Below, piece after piece: positions 1,550-27,079 of a DNA stretch of 40,427 bases (position 1 is its first letter; each line of letters begins with the position of its first letter). The notes under the pieces are model-generated. The model did not search any database. It was not told where the DNA came from and was given only the letters and a program-made list of their open reading frames with translations. Origin of the DNA: a bacterium (GTDB lineage Bacteria > Patescibacteriota > Minisyncoccia > Phycocordibacterales > SBAW01). The translations under genes were made by a program, and so were the position numbers. The stretch spans positions 1-40,427 of the forward strand of contig JAKBZO010000005.1 of NCBI GenBank assembly GCA_021839985.1, in the 5' to 3' direction.

Positions 1550-1948
1550 ATTCGTTATGGTTGCCGAGCTCGCGAATATGCAGACCATTTCCTCAGAGGT
1601 TATTTTGACGGCGATGGTTCAAGTTATTCGTACAACGATCCGACGTATCCGAACAGCTTTCGATTCTATATCTCTTTCACTTCTGCGAGCCCAGCATTCT
1701 TTAAGTGGCTGAGAGGGAAACTTTTTGATGTCGCGGGGGTTAAAGGATACATAAGCCGCAATCGCAATAATCCATACCTGCAGCTGAAGTACGCAAAGAA
1801 GGAGTCGGTGCTCATCAGTGAGAAAATGTATTACAAGGGGTCGGTACCTTACTTGCGCCGCAAGCATTTGAAAATTAAGCGATCTTTGTGCATAATCAAC
1901 GGACGCCGGAGTGGTGAAATTGGTAGACACGCTACGTTCAGGTCGTAG
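1550..1948 (+). pseudogene. LAGLIDADG homing endonuclease, C-terminal remnant
   Basis: Frame 1550-1948 is open from a TGA at 1547 and has no ATG before the conserved motif. It reads YADHFLRGYFDGDGSSY, a clear second LAGLIDADG helix with its active-site Asp. Downstream come an FRFYISFTSASPAFFKWL strand-helix region and a MYYKGSVPYLRRK tail, both typical of LAGLIDADG_3 proteins. Recognisable homology stops near 1895, and the frame then runs into tRNA-Leu. The N-terminal half and a start codon are missing, so this is a decayed gene. LAGLIDADG enzymes are spread by introns and inteins, and in CPR bacteria they are common in rRNA introns. The fragment directly abuts a tRNA, which suggests a former intron or insertion. 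Confidence 0.8.
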
Positions 1949-1988
1949 TGCTCGCAAGGGCATGGAGGTTCAAGTCCTCTCTCCGGCA
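1905..1988 (+). tRNA. tRNA-Leu (anticodon CAG)
   Basis: This is a class II tRNA. The acceptor pairs 1905-1911 with 1981-1987, the anticodon loop TTCAGGT carries CAG, and there is a long variable arm (TGCTCGCAAGGGCA). The T stem is 1964-1968/1976-1980 with loop TTCAAGT, and the discriminator is A1988. CCA is not encoded. No promoter is evident directly upstream, because the endonuclease remnant occupies that space. Confidence 0.95.
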
Positions 1989-2056
1989 CAAAACAAAGAA
2001 GCCAAAGCGAATAGCTTTGGCGACTATTGTTTTGTAGTATGGAGAAAGGACTTGAA
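1988..2056 (+). repeat. Inverted copy of the tRNA-Leu 3' end, plus nested hairpin
   Basis: Bases 2041-2056 pair with 1969-1984 of the tRNA at 15 of 16 positions. Bases 2027-2035 pair perfectly with the trailer 1988-1996. Inside is an 8-bp hairpin (2001-2008/2014-2021). The whole forms one long foldback whose 5' strand is the T arm and acceptor strand of the tRNA. The inner hairpin could act as a terminator, but that alone does not need the outer match to the tRNA. Confidence 0.75.
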
Positions 2057-18337: not shown

Positions 18338-18368
18338 CCTTGCGCCCGAAAAGTATTAGGAGGATGTG

Positions 18369-21300
18369 ATGGTTGCCGATTATACTAAGTGGCATAGGGA
18401 TTGGTCGCCAGGCGACCGGTCTGTTTTTTGTATGCAAAAAATTAGCGCCCCATTCAGAGAGCCGCAAGGATACACTTCTTCTCGCGACGCGAGTAGAAAA
18501 TTCGATCTATCAAACGACTATATATCTCGTCTATGTCGTTTTGGAAAAGTCGAAGGCGTGCTTATCGGAAAAGTATGGTACGTCAACGACGAGTCACTAG
18601 CAGCTTTCATTGCTCATACTGTTTCGCGGCGCGCAGAATATGCGAAGTCTCTTGCAGAGCAGCGTAAAAAAGAGTATGACGAAAACCTCAGTCGTGTGAC
18701 GAACCAGGTAGAAGCTGCCGCACAAAACGCACAAGAGAAGATAGATAATGGATCGCGTGCGCCGTTGTCTGGCCGAAAGGGACCGATGAAGATCGAAGCT
18801 GTTGTCGGGCGCTCTGCGTCAGTGGCAGGTCGGTTCAGTGCCGCTCTGGCGACTGCTTTTGTGAGCATTGCGCTCGTGGGAGTGGCATATGCGATGCCGT
18901 TCATAGCGACGCCAGCGATATCTTCGCTTGCAAGTGCGGTGCAAGGCGCTCAGTCCGCGTTCTTTTCACAGCCGCAACTAACTGATACTGGCGTATTCAG
19001 CCGAGCACTCTCTCATCTTGAAGAGTTCGGCGCAAGCGTCATCTCTTCACTTATCCGTTCGGTCGCGTCGACGACTTCTTCGCCGCAGATCGTCTATATT
19101 GCGACTTCGACGAGCGCTGTTGCTGGTGGGGTAAGCGGCAATGCGGCGCCTGCGGTAGTGTACTTGCCGTCGCCGACCATTCAAAGAACTACTATAGTGC
19201 AGGGAGGCGTAACGCAAGAAGATCTTACCGCGCAAATGCAGGCGCTTAAGAACTCAGTCCTCTCGCAGATCTTCAGTGCGGGTCCAACGCCAGGATCAGG
19301 AGGTCTCATCAATATGATCGCGGCAAGTCAGCGAGTCAACACGATTTCCAACGCCACTATCTCTGGCGCGTCTATTTCCGGTTCGAGTGTCAGTGGTGGC
19401 TCAGGCTCATTCACTTCACTTGATACCAGCGGAGTCTTGTCCGTCACGGGGACAGGAACCTCGACGATCACAAGCGATCTCAATGTGGGAAGCGGCGTGT
19501 TGTACGTCGATTCGATCAATGGCCGAGTTGGTATTGGCACGACCACTCCGTCCCAGACTTTCACGGTGAGCGGGGATGGTAATTTTACCGGCGTTCTTAC
19601 TGCAGCAAACCTCACCGCATCAGGCGGACTTACCCTTACCGGTCTCGCAAAGAATTCGGTGCTTGCATCCGATGCAACGGGCGCTATCACAGCAACGAGC
19701 ACGCCTTATGTCGCAGCTATCGTTGCGACATCCACATCGGCAACATCAACTCTCGCGGGCGGTTTCGCTGTTGGCGGCGATCAACTTCTCGTCCAACAAG
19801 CGACGGGATATATTGGCATCGGCACGACCTCACCATTCGCACTGCTCTCAGTGAACGGCAGCGGCTTCTTCGGCGGCAGCATGACCGCCACCGACCTCAC
19901 CGCGACCGGCACGGTCACTGCGGTGAACATCCTCGCGACCGGTTCGACCACGCTGCAGAACTTCACGGGCATGAATGCTACGACAACGAACGCCACCACC
20001 ACCAACTTCAACGCCACCGACCTTGTCGCCAGTGCAGCCACTTCCACTTCGCTCTATGCCTCGGTCGCGCACTTTGCCTCAAGCGTCTTCGATTCCTTCA
20101 CCGCCACCCTCGCCACTATCGCCGGTCTCAACGTCACGAACTCCACCACGACCAATGCGACGTCGACCAATTCATACAGCAGCACGCTCGAAGCAGGCGC
20201 TGCATTATTCGGAGGGACCGCAACCTCTTCATTCGCTTCAAACGGTGCGCTGACGCTCTCGCAAGCACTTGCCGAGACGTCTGGCGGTACCGGTCAAAAT
20301 TCGTACACGCTTGGAGATATGCTCTATGGCTCTGGCACCAACACGCTCGCTAAACTGGCAGGCAACACGTCGACCGTACAAAAATTCCTCTCGATGACCG
20401 GCGACGGCACCAATGCCGGTGCGCCATCGTGGCAGGTGTTGCCGGTGTCTGGCACGTTGTCCTACTATTTCTATGGCCTCCAGGCAACCTCTTCTCCGGC
20501 ATATCTTTTGATGCAGTCGGCCGCGACCTCTTCAGAGGTCATAAATACCTATTCGGGCCTTACATCAACAACGCTTATTCAGAATTGGATAACGCCGACT
20601 GGCTTCCCAGCACTTTCATTCATCCCAGCAGGCGAGTATGAATTCCATATACACGCCTCTCAGACAGCCGGTACGGCGGGCACCTTGTATGCCGAATTCT
20701 GGGAAGTAGATTCAACTGGCAAGGACATCGCGAAGATCGGCACATCAGAATCTTCATCGGCGCTTCCGGGCACTGAAACCGAGTACCGGCTGTTCTTCTC
20801 GAATCCCAACACCTACACCATGGCATCGACTGCCTCGCGTATCGTCGCGAAGGTCTACTTCACCTATGTGGGCGGGACCGACACCGTGAATCTCTACTTG
20901 GGCGGTACCGCTGATTCGCATATCACGCTTCCGAGCAACACGGTCGACGCAACGAACTTCGTGCCCTATGTCGGTGCGACAAAGAATCTCGATCTCGGCT
21001 TGTTCAATGCGTCGTCGACAGAGTTCACCACCTCCGGCACGACCTATCTCGCGACAGCGGGCGGCAACGTCGGAGTGGGCACGACTTCTCCATGGCGCTC
21101 TCTCTCAGTGAGTGGTTCGTCGGATCTTGGCGTGAACGCGCTTGCCGGTTCCTTTACCGCTACCTCGACGGCAACATCGACCTTTGCCGGTCCGATCTCA
21201 TCTCCATCAGGTAACCTCATCATCAGCTCTTTCGATGGTGGCAACAAACTCCTCCTCAATCCATACGGCAATGCGGTCGGTATCAACACACTCAACCCGA

Positions 21301-24300
21301 CTTACCAGCTCGACGTGAACGGTACGGGGCGATTTGGTGGTACGCTCAATTTGGCAACGGCACTTTCTTGTACGGGTTCGCAAGCACTTCAGACCGATGC
21401 TTCCGGCAATGTGTCCTGTGGAAATCTTTCTGGCGTCTCCACTATCGCGGGCGCAGCCGGTTGGGTGACGAATAATGTTGGACAGATCACGCTCGCGACC
21501 ACGACCGATCAAGTCGGCATCGGCGCAACGACGACGCCCTATGCGAAGCTCTCGGTTATATCGGGGAGTACAGGCACTACGACACTCGCTCTCGTGCCGT
21601 CTCCGTCGGCAACCGCTCATATCTTTGACATCTACGACAACTTCGGCAACCTCGCATCAGTATTTACCGCGGACGGACACTTCGGCATCGGTACGACTTC
21701 GCCAATGTCGCAGCTCGCGATCAGTAGTTCTTTGACCGGCCCGTCCGACGTGTCGCTCACGTTCGCCGACACATACAGTGGCGTTAATGGTTACGTTGGT
21801 GTCGACAATGGTGACTCGGCGATCGATCTCGGTTCATACACGGCAAGTGACGTACGCCTTGAGACGCATGGTACTGAACGTCTGCGTGTGCTTGGCACCA
21901 ACGGTTATATCGGCATTGCCTCAACATCGCCGTGGGGTCTGCTTTCGATCAACGCGAACGGCAATATCACCCCGGGTACGCCCGAATTCGTCGTCGGCTC
22001 ATCAACGGTGACCGACTTTATCGTAAGTAATGGCGGCAACGTCGGAGTGGGCACGACCTCGCCCTTCGCACTGCTCTCAGTGAACGGTAGCGGCTTCTTC
22101 GGCGGCAGCGTGACCGCGACCAACCTCACCGCCACCGGCACGGTCACTGCGGTGAGCATCCTCGCGACCGGTTCGACCACGCTGCAGAACTTCACCGGCG
22201 TGAATGCAACGACAACGAACGCCACCACCACCAATGCATACGAGTCGAACCTGGTAGCAGTGAACGCAACATCGACCAACCTTTATGCCTCGGTCGCGCA
22301 CTTTGCCTCAAGCATCTTCGATTCCTTCACCGCCACCCTTGCTACCATCACCGGACTTAACGTCACGAACTCCACCACGACGAATGCGACGTCGACCAAT
22401 GCATACAGCAGCACGCTCGCAGCAGGCACTGCATCATTCGGAGGGACCGCAACCTCTTCATTCGCTTCAAACGGTGCGCTCACGCTGGCAGGCCCATTGA
22501 ATGGCCCGCTTCAGGCGAACAACGGACTCGTCTCAGCGACAACGTCAGTGGGCGTTCTGTATGGCGGCACGGGCCTTACCGTTGCGCCGACCTACGGCCA
22601 ACTTCTCGTCGGCAATGCCACCGGCGGCTACGCGCTCACCGCGACATCAAGCCTCGGCCTCCCGACCTTCGGCACGCTCGCTGCCACCTATCCGCTTCAA
22701 TATGACGGCACGGGCACCTTCTCGCTTGCTTTCGGCACCACGACCTCCAACGCCTGGGCAGGCACGCAGACCTTCACCAATGCACCGACACTCAGCAACT
22801 TCACCGGCCTCGTCGCGGCAAACGGGGGAGTGACCTATGCGACCGCGACCACCACGCTCGTCGCCGGTACGAACCTCACCTTCTCAGGCGGCACCCCGGT
22901 CGTTCTCGGCTCATCGCCGATCACGCTCAACGTAGCCAGCTCGGGCAATGTCGCCACCTCGTCGGCCGAGACCGCCGGACAGCTTCCGTACTGGACCACT
23001 ACATCGGGAACTCCTGCTAAGCTCGGCAGCATCGCCACTTCCTCGCTCACGCTCGGCCTCGGTCTGAATTACTCGGGCACACTCGGTTCGCTTGTGGGCG
23101 GCACCTCCGGCAACTTCACGCTCGCGACCTCCTCACTCTTCACGGGAGCGCTCGGTCAGGCTGCATACTTCAACGGCGCGAACGCTCTCACGGCTACCTC
23201 CTCGCTCTTCTTTGCAACGAGTGGCAACGTCGGCATCGGGACGACCACCCCCGGCTCGCTCTTTGCAATACAAGGCATCGCAAACTTCACCACGGCGACG
23301 AGTACCCTCTATTCTTCAGGCGGCATCAACCTCACGAGCGGCTGCTTCGCGATTGCGGGCGTCTGTATCACTGGCACTGGCGGGGGAGGCGGCACGACGC
23401 TCACCGGCCTGCAGGTAAATGATGCGACCAACACCGGCGCCACCCTTCCCAGCAACCTCTACACCTCCCAAACCGCCGTCATCGGCAACACCATCTACCT
23501 CTTCGGCGGGTACAACGGCAGCGCCGTCACCAACGTCATATATAGCGCCCCCGTCTCTAACCCCACCAGCTGGACCAACACCGGCGCCACCCTCCCCGGC
23601 AACCTCGACAGCTCCCAAATCGCCGTCATCGGCAACACCATCTACCTCTTCGGCGGGTACAACGGCAGCGCCACCACCAACGTCATATATAGCGCCCCCG
23701 TCTCTAACCCCACCAGCTGGACCAACACCGGCGCCACCCTCCCCGGCAACCTCGACAGCTCCCAAATCGCCGTCATCGGCAACACCATCTACCTATTCGG
23801 CGGGAGCAACGGCAGCGCCGCCACCAACGTCATATATAGCGCCCCCATCTACTCCAGCAACCCTTCAAACCTCGCCTACAACAACTCGTGGAAAGTCGAT
23901 GGCAATGGCGTGAACTCTGGCGGCGTGAATGTCGGCACTCAGGGTCAGCTCCCGTTCTACAATGCCGCCGGCACTACGCTCTCCGCCACCTCCTCGATCT
24001 TCCTCGCGCAGAGCGGCTACGTCGGCATCGGCACGACCACGCCGAACTGGCTCCTGCAAGTCGCTGGCACACGCCCATCGCTCGCACTTACGGACACCTC
24101 AGCGGGTACGAATCTGAAGCACTGGCTCTTCTCCTCAATGGGAGGAAACCTCTACATCGGCACTTCGACCGATGCGTATGCCACCAGCACGCCATCGGCG
24201 CTCACGATATTGAACAACGGCAACGTCGGCATCGGCACGGCGAGTCCGACACAGAAGCTTGAGGTATCCAGCGTAGGTGGCAGTTATCCACAGGTGAAAA

Positions 24301-26267
24301 TCGACAACACTAGCGCCGGTGGCTCGGCGGGTATGCGGCTCTCCGGTAACAACGGCAGCTCGGTATGGGATGTCGCCTCAAACTGGTCCGGCTCGAACAA
24401 CGAGTTTACCGTCCTCTACAATTCCACGACGAGCGTGATCACCGCATTAACAAATGGCAACGTCGGCATCGGCACGACAGGACCGCTGACGAAGCTTGAC
24501 GTGAATGTTCCAGGTACTACGACGCTCGCGAACATTCAACAGAACTTGAGTAGCAATGGTATCGCGTTGAACGGAGGAGCCTATGGAGCCGGAAATTATT
24601 TGCCGGGTCTTATCTGGTATACCGGCGACCAGGTGAAGCCCAAGGCGGGAGTATGGGCTCAAGAGACCGCGAATGGTTCGTACCTCGACTTCGGTACGTC
24701 GAATAATTATGGTATTGGAATCACTAATACGGCACTGGCCATAGATTATGACGGCAATGTCGGTATCGGGACGACGAGTCCTGTCGCCCCGCTCTCTGTA
24801 GTGGCCGTGTCGTCGGCAACTTCGACGATCACTGTCGGTCGGAGCGAGGTAGGTAGCGAGTCGCAGATCCTCATGTACGGCGGCCTTGGCGGGCATAATT
24901 ATTCGATTACAAACAACAATTTCGTCGACGGGCTCGAGTTTACGCCTTCGACGGCTATAGCCGGCACGGCATTTACCACACCGACACTCGAACTCCTCGG
25001 CAACGGCAACGTCGGCATCGGGACGACGAGTCCGGCGACCTTGCTCGAAGCGGGCGGTTCGACGGCGAACGTGACCTTCGACGGGTATAAGAACTGCACC
25101 GGATTCACGAGCAACGCCAACGGCCTCCTCGCCTGCACCGCATCCGACGAACGCTTGAAGCAAGACATCACGCCGCTTGATAGCGTGGCTACGCTTGCGG
25201 GCATCGATGCACTCAACCCGGTCTCGTTCTATTGGGATCCAGAAACGCAGCGCGGGCCGAGAGAGCAGTTCGGCTTCATCGCCCAGCAAGTGCAGCAGGT
25301 GTTCCCGAACCTGGTCGCCACGAGCTCGCCGACGAGCCTTACGCCTGACGGCACGCTCTCGCTTGACTACAACGGCCTCATCGCGCCGGCAGTCCTTGCG
25401 ATCCAGGAGCTCCACCTCGATCTCAATGCCATTGCGTCGGCGGCCGCATCGTCGACGCCGGAGTCTCAGAGCTTCGCATCGTCGTTCTTCAGCAACCTTT
25501 TCGCGAAACTCGTGCAGTGGTTCGCGGATGCGACGAACGGCATCGGCAAGTTCTTTGCCGGTGAGGTGCACACGAAGGAGATGTGCGTGGCGAAGTCCGA
25601 CGGTACGGAAGCCTGCCTCAATGGCGATGAACTTGCAGCGCTCATGGCGGGCCAGACGACCTCATCGTCAACCACTTCTTCGACCTCAACTTCGACCTCA
25701 ACTTCGACAACGACCTCGACAACGACCTCATCGACGAGCACGTCGACGCCGCCGGTCATTTCAGTGAATGGTGCGGATCCGGCGGAGATTACGGTCGGTG
25801 ACAGCTATGTCGATCTTGGCGCGACGATCACCGGTCCGTCAAGCGACCTCAATCTCGGCATCTCTGCGATCGTCAACGGCGGCGCGACGACCACGGTCGA
25901 TCAGATTCACATCGACACTTCCACCGCAGGAACGTCGACGATCGAGTATGTCGTTGTCGACCAAAACGGACTCATGGGAACAGCGACGCGCACGGTGGTC
26001 GTGAATCCGGTAACGCCCGCGCCGGCACCGACCACATATTCGATCATCGCATCGGTCTCGGGTACTGGTATCGGCGCTATCTCGCCGACCGGCACGACGA
26101 CGGTGACGAGCGGCAACACACAGCAATACACCGTCACGCCGGACGCATCGTCGACCATCAGCGCGCTCATCGTTGACGGCGCATCGGTGGCGACCAGTAC
26201 GACCTACACCTTCTCTAACGTAACCGCGAACCACACGATCGACGCCGAGTTCACCCCGCTGCCATAA
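18369..26267 (+). CDS. Giant HTH-transmembrane-tail-fibre surface protein with S74 domain
   Basis: AGGAGG (18358-18363) sits 5 nt before the ATG, giving 2632 residues. Order: cytoplasmic MerR-like HTH (about 35-82), charged helix (85-140), one membrane span (about 158-180), then an external stalk. The stalk has about 14 copies of a VGIGTTSP..LLSVNG-type motif common in phage tail and CPR surface proteins, and many NATTTNAT-like segments. Three 49-residue kelch-like repeats with IYLFGG lie near residues 1690-1830. The S74 endosialidase-chaperone domain starts at S2259-D2260 (SDERLKQDI, then FGFIAQQVQQVFPNLV and LDYNGLIAP). This domain normally trimerises the stalk and cuts itself before the Ser-Asp. 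Unusually, about 290 residues follow it: a two-Cys segment, a Ser/Thr linker, a DUF5011/Ig-like domain and a bacterial-repeat (Flg_new_2-like) domain. A role in host attachment is inference. Confidence 0.85.
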   Translation: MVADYTKWHRDWSPGDRSVFCMQKISAPFREPQGYTSSRDASRKFDLSNDYISRLCRFGKVEGVLIGKVWYVNDESLAAFIAHTVSRRAEYAKSLAEQRKKEYDENLSRVTNQVEAAAQNAQEKIDNGSRAPLSGRKGPMKIEAVVGRSASVAGRFSAALATAFVSIALVGVAYAMPFIATPAISSLASAVQGAQSAFFSQPQLTDTGVFSRALSHLEEFGASVISSLIRSVASTTSSPQIVYIATSTSAVAGGVSGNAAPAVVYLPSPTIQRTTIVQGGVTQEDLTAQMQALKNSVLSQIFSAGPTPGSGGLINMIAASQRVNTISNATISGASISGSSVSGGSGSFTSLDTSGVLSVTGTGTSTITSDLNVGSGVLYVDSINGRVGIGTTTPSQTFTVSGDGNFTGVLTAANLTASGGLTLTGLAKNSVLASDATGAITATSTPYVAAIVATSTSATSTLAGGFAVGGDQLLVQQATGYIGIGTTSPFALLSVNGSGFFGGSMTATDLTATGTVTAVNILATGSTTLQNFTGMNATTTNATTTNFNATDLVASAATSTSLYASVAHFASSVFDSFTATLATIAGLNVTNSTTTNATSTNSYSSTLEAGAALFGGTATSSFASNGALTLSQALAETSGGTGQNSYTLGDMLYGSGTNTLAKLAGNTSTVQKFLSMTGDGTNAGAPSWQVLPVSGTLSYYFYGLQATSSPAYLLMQSAATSSEVINTYSGLTSTTLIQNWITPTGFPALSFIPAGEYEFHIHASQTAGTAGTLYAEFWEVDSTGKDIAKIGTSESSSALPGTETEYRLFFSNPNTYTMASTASRIVAKVYFTYVGGTDTVNLYLGGTADSHITLPSNTVDATNFVPYVGATKNLDLGLFNASSTEFTTSGTTYLATAGGNVGVGTTSPWRSLSVSGSSDLGVNALAGSFTATSTATSTFAGPISSPSGNLIISSFDGGNKLLLNPYGNAVGINTLNPTYQLDVNGTGRFGGTLNLATALSCTGSQALQTDASGNVSCGNLSGVSTIAGAAGWVTNNVGQITLATTTDQVGIGATTTPYAKLSVISGSTGTTTLALVPSPSATAHIFDIYDNFGNLASVFTADGHFGIGTTSPMSQLAISSSLTGPSDVSLTFADTYSGVNGYVGVDNGDSAIDLGSYTASDVRLETHGTERLRVLGTNGYIGIASTSPWGLLSINANGNITPGTPEFVVGSSTVTDFIVSNGGNVGVGTTSPFALLSVNGSGFFGGSVTATNLTATGTVTAVSILATGSTTLQNFTGVNATTTNATTTNAYESNLVAVNATSTNLYASVAHFASSIFDSFTATLATITGLNVTNSTTTNATSTNAYSSTLAAGTASFGGTATSSFASNGALTLAGPLNGPLQANNGLVSATTSVGVLYGGTGLTVAPTYGQLLVGNATGGYALTATSSLGLPTFGTLAATYPLQYDGTGTFSLAFGTTTSNAWAGTQTFTNAPTLSNFTGLVAANGGVTYATATTTLVAGTNLTFSGGTPVVLGSSPITLNVASSGNVATSSAETAGQLPYWTTTSGTPAKLGSIATSSLTLGLGLNYSGTLGSLVGGTSGNFTLATSSLFTGALGQAAYFNGANALTATSSLFFATSGNVGIGTTTPGSLFAIQGIANFTTATSTLYSSGGINLTSGCFAIAGVCITGTGGGGGTTLTGLQVNDATNTGATLPSNLYTSQTAVIGNTIYLFGGYNGSAVTNVIYSAPVSNPTSWTNTGATLPGNLDSSQIAVIGNTIYLFGGYNGSATTNVIYSAPVSNPTSWTNTGATLPGNLDSSQIAVIGNTIYLFGGSNGSAATNVIYSAPIYSSNPSNLAYNNSWKVDGNGVNSGGVNVGTQGQLPFYNAAGTTLSATSSIFLAQSGYVGIGTTTPNWLLQVAGTRPSLALTDTSAGTNLKHWLFSSMGGNLYIGTSTDAYATSTPSALTILNNGNVGIGTASPTQKLEVSSVGGSYPQVKIDNTSAGGSAGMRLSGNNGSSVWDVASNWSGSNNEFTVLYNSTTSVITALTNGNVGIGTTGPLTKLDVNVPGTTTLANIQQNLSSNGIALNGGAYGAGNYLPGLIWYTGDQVKPKAGVWAQETANGSYLDFGTSNNYGIGITNTALAIDYDGNVGIGTTSPVAPLSVVAVSSATSTITVGRSEVGSESQILMYGGLGGHNYSITNNNFVDGLEFTPSTAIAGTAFTTPTLELLGNGNVGIGTTSPATLLEAGGSTANVTFDGYKNCTGFTSNANGLLACTASDERLKQDITPLDSVATLAGIDALNPVSFYWDPETQRGPREQFGFIAQQVQQVFPNLVATSSPTSLTPDGTLSLDYNGLIAPAVLAIQELHLDLNAIASAAASSTPESQSFASSFFSNLFAKLVQWFADATNGIGKFFAGEVHTKEMCVAKSDGTEACLNGDELAALMAGQTTSSSTTSSTSTSTSTSTTTSTTTSSTSTSTPPVISVNGADPAEITVGDSYVDLGATITGPSSDLNLGISAIVNGGATTTVDQIHIDTSTAGTSTIEYVVVDQNGLMGTATRTVVVNPVTPAPAPTTYSIIASVSGTGIGAISPTGTTTVTSGNTQQYTVTPDASSTISALIVDGASVATSTTYTFSNVTANHTIDAEFTPLP
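19821..20257 (+). repeat. Long direct repeat within the giant gene, copy A
   Basis: This stretch is nearly identical to 22050-22486 at a constant offset of 2229 bp (743 codons). Only the central part (about 20004-20055) diverges clearly. Confidence 0.85.
22050..22486 (+). repeat. Long direct repeat within the giant gene, copy B
   Basis: Copy B of the 437-bp in-frame duplication. There are no length differences from copy A across the aligned stretch, so recombination would remove or add exactly 743 codons. Confidence 0.85.
23434..23850 (+). repeat. Three 147-bp tandem kelch-like repeats, C-rich
   Basis: Units start at 23434, 23581 and 23728 and are almost identical. Each encodes 49 residues with AVIGNTIYLFGG, NGSA and NVIYSAPVSNPTSW. 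Counting unit 2 by hand gives 66 C and 27 G in 147 bases, a strong C bias on the coding strand that differs from the sequence further out. The bias and near-identity suggest recent amplification or import. Confidence 0.85.
25665..25745 (+). repeat. Ser/Thr-linker minisatellite
   Basis: Twelve-base units CGACCTCAACTT (25681 and 25693) and CGACAACGACCT (25705 and 25717) are tandem, flanked by degenerate versions. They encode a Ser/Thr-only linker of about 28 residues whose length could vary by slippage without breaking the frame. Confidence 0.75.
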
Positions 26268-26452: not shown

Positions 26453-27079
26453 ATGAGACGTCGTGATTATAAAGAATTCGCTCCAGGAGTTTCGTACCAT
26501 ATCTATAACCGAGGTAACGGCAAGATGGATATCTTCAGGGACGAACAGGATTACTTGAACTTTCTCAGGCGTCTTCGTATTGCGCTTGGAAAGTCGCAGG
26601 GCGCCACCTCGTCGATCCGTCTTACCCCATTCGATCCGAGTTTCTTCTCACTCATCGCATACTGCCTCATGCCGAACCATTTTCACTTCCAGATCAAGCA
26701 GTGCGGGGAAGTGCCGCTTGGAAAACTCCTACTCAAGGTGTGCACCAGCTACTCAATGTACTTTAATAAGAAATATGACCATGTCGGACATGTGTTCCAG
26801 GATCAGTTCAAAGCCGTTCCTATACAGACAGATGGTCAAGCGATCGCGCTGTCCGCGTATATCCACCAGAATCCGAAAGTCGCAAGGTTTGCAGATGCGC
26901 CCGAACAATGGGCGTACAGCAGCTACCAAGATTACATCGGCTCTCGACACGGGAATCTTATCGACCCCAGCTTCATACTCACGCAGTTTACGGATAGGAA
27001 GGCGTATAAGGCCTTTGTCGATGAAAGTTTTGAAGACATCCTTGAGTATAAGAACATCGGGAAACTTATTCTAGATTAA
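26453..27079 (+). CDS. REP-associated tyrosine transposase (RAYT, Y1 HUH family)
   Basis: This 208-residue Y1 transposase-like protein has the HUH motif H76-F-H78 in CLMPNHFHFQIK and the catalytic Tyr136 in SAYIHQNP. It also has an N-terminal GVSYHIYNRGN strand and a WAYSSYQDYIG segment, all standard for TnpA_REP. Such enzymes nick single-stranded REP hairpins and are thought to spread them. Five copies of one 17-nt palindromic unit bracket the gene (two left, one at the start, two right), exactly the arrangement expected for an autonomous RAYT/REP element. All key residues are present, so it may be active. Confidence 0.93.
   Translation: MRRRDYKEFAPGVSYHIYNRGNGKMDIFRDEQDYLNFLRRLRIALGKSQGATSSIRLTPFDPSFFSLIAYCLMPNHFHFQIKQCGEVPLGKLLLKVCTSYSMYFNKKYDHVGHVFQDQFKAVPIQTDGQAIALSAYIHQNPKVARFADAPEQWAYSSYQDYIGSRHGNLIDPSFILTQFTDRKAYKAFVDESFEDILEYKNIGKLILD

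Follow-up and report, generated by a model that had tools for sequence, protein, structure and literature searches.

A small RtT-like structured element, probably mobile, with a host-matched pairing segment at tRNA 3' ends in Patescibacteria

Background

The RtT repeats (Rfam RF00391) are known at the tyrT locus of E. coli and, to our knowledge, have no clear function. In the tyrT/tyrV region of E. coli K-12, which was examined here for comparison, these rttR repeats form tandem units of 178 bp. Each unit contains 18-19 nt of the tRNA-Tyr 3' end, from T-loop A58 to CCA (19 nt at a spacing of 159), followed by a complement of the tRNA 3' half (GGGGAAGGAT(GAGAA)) and a structured core, and closes with a repeat of the tRNA 3' end. 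The same order of parts is found in the element described here, which was detected in a stretch of 40,427 nt from a bacterium of the Patescibacteria (assembly GCA_021839985.1, contig JAKBZO010000005.1, positions 1 to 40,427; hereafter the window). An earlier note on the sequence of the window had reported that its tRNA-Leu is followed by an inverted copy of its own 3' end. The best explanation, to which we assign a probability of about 0.62, is that this inverted copy represents the host-matched pairing segment of an RtT-like, non-coding element, which is small, structured and mobile and inserts at the 3' ends of tRNA genes.

Several other systems share single features with the element. Integrative elements that use the T-loop sublocation of tRNA genes are bounded by a direct repeat from the T loop to the tRNA 3' end and keep the tRNA intact, as is the case here. 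The element differs from them in that it is very small, that no integrase gene lies inside its 155-220 bp units, that it has a host-matched inverted segment and that the duplicated segment is the host's own. In group I and group II introns and in the IS110 bridge RNA, a segment of RNA complementary to the target adjoins a conserved structured core. Judged from general knowledge, the likeness of the element to these systems is one of working principle only, and in contrast to the introns, it has no intron match in Rfam and leaves a target duplication. As modelled, its fold would be compatible with a self-splicing insert. The transposing tRNA introns of Thermoproteales archaea (cited in PMC10714607) likewise move among different tRNA genes and may be located inside the tRNA fold, whereas the element described here is bacterial and has a duplication on its flanks. 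A literature search from which subscription papers were mostly missing turned up no description of such units, and this absence is weak evidence.

Results

The host tRNA-Leu(CAG) lies at positions 1905-1988/9 of the forward strand and was identified with ARAGORN and Rfam (RF00005). Copy 1, the 3' half (C56 to C74) that is present twice in intact elements, covers 1971-1989 according to the repeat starts observed elsewhere. On the same strand, it is followed by hairpin 1 (1990-2033), whose conserved base (AAAACAAAG / GACTATTGTTTT) was recognized by folding and by compensated changes in a Val-CAC orthologue pair, and by the pairing segment or 'guide' (2034-2056), which is the reverse complement of the tRNA-Leu T arm and part of the acceptor strand. 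The type A core consists of the helices P2 (2058-2098) and P3 (2101-2148), both based on the covariance model R1 and on pair counts. A decayed copy 2 of the tRNA-Leu 3' half (GAGCCCTCTCATGCCCAC) ends the element at 2149-2166; the match itself is weak, and its position fits the intact copies elsewhere. The guide is the inverted copy seen previously. Pairing between 1969-1984 and 2041-2056 at 15 of 16 positions, between the trailer 1988-1996 and 2027-2035 at nine of nine, and an inner 8-bp hairpin at 2001-2021 were all found as described. The earlier observation is therefore right and understated: the inverted copy is real, and the structure runs on to about 2166 with two conserved helices and the decayed direct copy. 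A match of 15 in 16 to the tRNA-Leu arm occurred in none of 20,000 dinucleotide-preserving shuffles of the 150 nt downstream. RNA folding of 1905-2060 gave a z-score of -7.3 against shuffles and placed the tRNA 3' half inside a long hairpin, away from the cloverleaf, as had been proposed.

The genome that contains the window (G000; 736 kb in 38 contigs) was searched with positions 1880-2170, which yielded eight further matches, mostly directly downstream of other tRNAs. All 47 tRNAs of this genome were located, the flanks of essentially all of them were inspected, and about 20 are followed by a unit of approximately 155-220 bp. The unit starts with copy 1 of the tRNA 3' half, continues with one or two hairpins, the reverse complement of the tRNA's own T arm and acceptor strand, and the P2-P3 core, and ends with copy 2. 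The best copies in this genome have perfect 19-nt direct repeats starting at T-loop C56. At least three core types can be distinguished, namely A (GCGAGCGCGGGCACC..), B (GCCGGAGC..GCGAGGCGGGGTCGCG..) and C (at tRNA-Ile, tRNA-Asp and tRNA-Tyr). Both tRNAs of the window bear an element, of type A at tRNA-Leu and of type C at tRNA-Ile(GAT), which lies at 208-281 of the forward strand. This second element covers 282-454 of the same strand (263-454 including copy 1), with hairpins at 282-341, the guide at 342-353, P2 at 354-415, P3 at 419-436 and copy 2 at 437-454. Of 258 contexts, 75 bear a direct repeat, a hit-driven sample that does not give a prevalence, and the repeat begins at C56 in 36 of these 75. 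The repeats are mostly 12-23 nt long, with 19 nt as the commonest length, their spacing clusters at 155-160 and around 200, and the units are matched to about 19 tRNA isotypes. Common to the loci is a matched segment immediately before P2, whose pairing partner is the left edge of the duplicated sequence. The units are missed here by both ARAGORN and Rfam. A known RNA family was ruled out, as no Rfam family, introns included, matched at the gathering level in the window or believably at an E-value of up to 10 in a further locus (L046).

The check that had been suggested earlier, a comparison of each tRNA with its own downstream sequence, was run in three genomes. Own inverted matches with a score of at least 10 were found for 18 of 46 tRNAs in G000 and for 13 of 32 in its sister genome G002, but for only one of 33 in the congeneric G003, where swapped tRNAs would lead one to expect 0.7, 0.9 and 0.1, respectively. 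For G000, the expectation from shuffles is 0.12. Own direct repeats with a score of at least 12 follow 14 of 46, 13 of 32 and none of 33 tRNAs (expected 0.9, 0.4 and 0.6). G003 served as an identically run negative control and is rather distant, judging by its tRNAs. Since this own-tRNA matching exceeds both the shuffle and the swap expectation, the inverted copy is neither a product of chance nor a plain terminator.

Movement of the unit is well supported by the comparison of orthologous tRNAs in G000 and G002. At Arg-CCT and Lys-TTT, the unit is present in G002 only, and at Ser-TGA in G000 only, while at Lys-CTT, Asp, Val-TAC, Tyr and Arg-TCT the core types, which were assigned by eye, differ between the genomes. 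For Arg-CCT, the G002 flank following copy 2 and the G000 flank directly following the tRNA are identical at 106 of 115 positions. The reverse case, with the unit in G000, is found at Ser-TGA, where the flanks are identical at 86 of 103 positions. In both comparisons, the element itself does not align, and the insertion is clean, with the tRNA 3' end duplicated in the genome that has the unit. For Lys-TTT and Pro-TGG, the flank comparison gave no clean empty site. Both genomes keep what appears by eye to be the head of an older type B unit at Arg-CCT, suggesting that the type A unit was inserted at the same point.

The cores are distributed independently of the identity of the tRNA. Core identity reaches 99 % between G002 Arg-TCG and G000 Ala-GGC, 95 % between G000 Ser-TGA and Tyr of another genome (G001), and 93 % between G000 Val-TAC and G002 Lys-TTT, and Val-CAC is the only core in this comparison that is common by descent. 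Together with the two orthologous empty sites, this independence shows that the unit moves. The guides of near-identical cores at different tRNA species fit their own hosts better than chance; pairing is perfect over 21 nt for Val-TAC and over 19 nt for G002 Arg-TCG, and only partial for Ala-GGC. A further line of evidence for movement is provided by tandem units, which are present at Tyr in G000, at Ser in G403 and, in G260, at Arg.

The core forms a genuine structure whose pairs covary strongly. In P2-P3, 97 % of the cells are paired and 18 of 26 pairs show double changes, compared to 31-40 % paired cells in slid controls, although the alignment was fitted to the structure and relatedness can inflate its shuffle control. 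An independent MAFFT alignment of 21 copies already shows double changes in 13 of the 26 pairs. A double change was also observed in hairpin 2 of the Glu-CTC unit. When either 3' half was forced into the cloverleaf, copy 2 was favoured in 13 of 15 units with a median of -9 kcal/mol; in this fold, the unit forms an insertion within the T loop. The Leu unit of the window, with its decayed copy 2, is an exception. Where it is intact, copy 2 can restore the T stem and the acceptor, so that the sequestering fold is not necessarily fatal to the tRNA, and according to these models, an intact unit can pair with copy 1 while the tRNA is preserved.

The element has spread to many tRNA gene ends in a large group of uncultured bacteria. 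The type A model R1 matches in 22 of 41 genomes of the family and in 6 of 379 genomes sampled across the phylum, and the type B model R2 matches in 47 of the 379, including other classes. Most of the 15 R2 loci that were displayed lie directly downstream of a tRNA and include both the matched segment and copy 2. A scan by pattern over 84,980 species genomes returned 40 loci, and the named organisms among them are Patescibacteria (Kaiser-, Yonath-, Lloyd-, Nomura-, Vogel-, Yanofsky-, Moranii- and Parcubacteria). Viral contigs contained no exact match to the core pattern. Some of the 40 loci are located at other gene ends, identified by eye as those of an RNase P RNA-like (rnpB-like) gene, of rpsI and of a short protein gene, with direct repeats of about 5 to about 55 nt.

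Compared with RtT, the element is likewise bounded by roughly 18-19 nt of the tRNA 3' end at a spacing of about 160-180, apart from the decayed copy at the window's tRNA-Leu. Both have a host-complementary segment before the core, and both occur in tandem. RtT differs in its shorter pairing segment, in a copy-2 fold that has almost no advantage (-1.4 and -0.3 kcal/mol), and in its restriction to tRNA-Tyr in the region examined. The RtT model gave no match in the window at the gathering threshold or in L046 at an E-value of up to 10, while the E. coli control scored 133-138 bits. Conversely, R2 scored 8 bits on RtT (E-value of about 0.3), and its three best matches in the E. coli region all fall in RtT units. 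Given the same architecture and the missing sequence match, the element is built like RtT without being a member of the RtT family by sequence.

Discussion

According to the favoured reading, the unit would consist of one or two hairpins, the complement of host positions T54-C74 and the conserved two-helix core, and its insertion would duplicate the tRNA 3' half (C56 or G57 to C74) on both sides, so that copy 1 keeps the tRNA whole. In the RNA, the segment would pair with copy 1, and an intact copy 2 would close the T stem and the acceptor, leaving the unit as a T-loop insert. The matched segment may direct the choice of the insertion site, or it may be rewritten from the host at insertion, which might be carried out by an enzyme or by the RNA itself. 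Cores that are 93-99 % identical next to different host-matched segments fit the rewriting of the segment. The data show that the units are dispersed, match their own tRNA, covary in structure, move between tRNA species and leave a duplication, and that the empty sites are precise. A bolder version, in which RNA-guided mobile elements are spread through the phylum, the tRNA gene is chosen by the RNA complementary to T54-C74, the duplication takes its length from the paired stretch, the segment is rewritten with each move and RtT is a surviving relative, is tentative and rather doubtful.

Several results weigh against the mobile element as described. G013 Leu-CAA and G023 Leu-TAG combine a perfect direct repeat with a poor matching segment, which stands against a host-written segment. 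Donor tracing from such imperfect guides was suggestive for G023 Leu-TAG alone, the guide of which resembles Leu-CAA, in what is too weak a test with 231 candidate tRNA ends. Genes for reverse transcriptases, IS200-type Y1 transposases and LAGLIDADG endonucleases were searched for in 41 genomes, and none of these families tracks the distribution of the element: no reverse transcriptase (RVT_1) was detected in the unit-rich G000, no Y1 transposase in G002 or G035, and no LAGLIDADG gene in G002. All three were therefore rejected as partners. Furthermore, the length of the direct repeat is variable (about 5, 18-19 and about 55 nt), unlike that of a classical transposon, and hairpin 1 may itself terminate transcription. 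Finally, the Val-CAC units of G000 and G002 are about 90 % alike, with compensated changes in the hairpin, whereas alignment is lost in the flank beyond copy 2. This, like the change in Glu-CTC, argues that units which remain in place are under selection, and suggests that they have some role for the host besides selfish spread.

This selection raises the standing of an alternative in which the unit serves the host in cis. As part of the same transcript, its segment would compete for the tRNA 3' half and thereby control 3' processing, which was one of the roles proposed in the earlier note, or the quality or amount of the tRNA, and copy 2 would act as a rescue. The strong base-pair constraint in core and hairpins, the folding preference for copy 2 and the annotation of the architectural counterpart in E. 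coli as a small RNA, RttR, agree with it. However, the distribution is patchy, since orthologous tRNAs of the sister genome have another type or none and G003 has none; similar cores follow genes named by eye as rnpB-like, rpsI and another protein gene; and no rescue is possible at the window's tRNA-Leu. We consider this alternative unlikely, though the most serious of the rivals. Replication might also have generated the units as a by-product if slippage and template switching produced direct and inverted copies of tRNA ends, quasi-palindrome correction kept them perfect and gene conversion spread the core. Perfect long palindromes, tandem units and a matched segment that tracks the host would follow from this, whereas a covarying conserved core spread among unrelated tRNAs and genomes, and the presence or absence of a whole unit with a precise junction at the Arg-CCT orthologues, would not, which makes it improbable.

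The interpretation in the earlier note is supported in part. Among the three roles that had been offered initially, a mobile scar or attachment site comes nearest to the mobile element favoured here: direct copies of the tRNA 3' half flank the unit, it is dispersed, and it differs between orthologous tRNAs. It is not, however, the remnant of one tRNA but a conserved element with its own covarying core. An ordinary attachment site, or what remains of an integrase-carrying island, would account for the T-loop-to-3'-end repeats, which are typical of tRNA-integrating recombinases, and one tRNA-Glu of G000 does hold a recombinase island. The units, on the other hand, are small and numerous, extend over many isotypes and have the host-matched inverted segment and the conserved core, and copy 1 is host sequence rather than a foreign attP half. 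A classical att site was ruled out because both copies of the tRNA half are host sequence and the units are tiny, and the broader version is very improbable. Least probable of all, and barely credible, is an intrinsic terminator that matches the tRNA by chance. The hairpin at 2001-2021 is terminator-like with a poor, interrupted T tract, but terminator-like sites are no more numerous than in shuffles, and neither the genome-wide own-tRNA matching nor the conserved core would be explained; as a full explanation, chance or a terminator is refuted by the shuffle and swap tests.

With the RtT architecture present at many tRNA species of Patescibacteria, moving and re-matched, the origin and mechanism of RtT become testable by comparison. 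As a bacterial case of an element that duplicates a tRNA half and has a host-matched complement, it bears on guide-directed insertion and on tRNA ends as landing sites. Such units merit annotation in Patescibacteria genomes.

Neighbouring genes and further loci

In several Patescibacteria (L133, L140, L143, L148, L153, L157 and L162), the same core lies at the 3' end of a single protein gene (..MMEGTKTIPERC..NPHKL), whose end is restored by direct repeats that reach about 55 nt. Three units lack a tRNA (L099 in G005, L145, and L228 in G429); immediately upstream of each lies a near-consensus promoter (TTGRAAATAGGTTCTAACTTGGTACAAT in two cases), as though the RNA of the unit were expressed alone. 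At Arg-CCG of G031 (L095), the tRNA is followed by a 39-nt tandem repeat, composed of the tRNA 3' half and 20 nt, without hairpins or core.

In G000, an island of about 6 kb (C37:15849-21922; L048) lies between tRNA-Glu(TTC) and its unit. It contains a large recombinase-like open reading frame (ORF) of 582 aa, by eye a serine recombinase, whose C terminus overlaps the tRNA. This recombinase was rejected as a partner of the element, since it appears to belong to a separate island that splits the tRNA from its unit. Similar neighbours may be present at the orphan Glu-type units of G019, G021 and G028 (L093, L094 and L091). In this family, LAGLIDADG_3 endonuclease-like ORFs directly adjoin tRNAs, mostly immediately upstream of those with a long variable arm (Leu, Ser and Tyr). 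Such loci include G000 C29:7676-8257 (L040, 1177-1758, forward strand), G000 C25:23416-23919 (reverse strand), L242-L263, and a fragment in the window (1550-1948, forward strand) that abuts tRNA-Leu(CAG). The window also contains a perfect long hairpin upstream of tRNA-Ile (96-140; CGCCACAAAAAGCTCTTTCC/GGAAAGAGCTTTTTGTGGCG), an IS200-type Y1 transposase-like gene (PF01797) at 26453-27079 of the forward strand and, on the same strand, an open frame of 2633 aa at 18366-26267.
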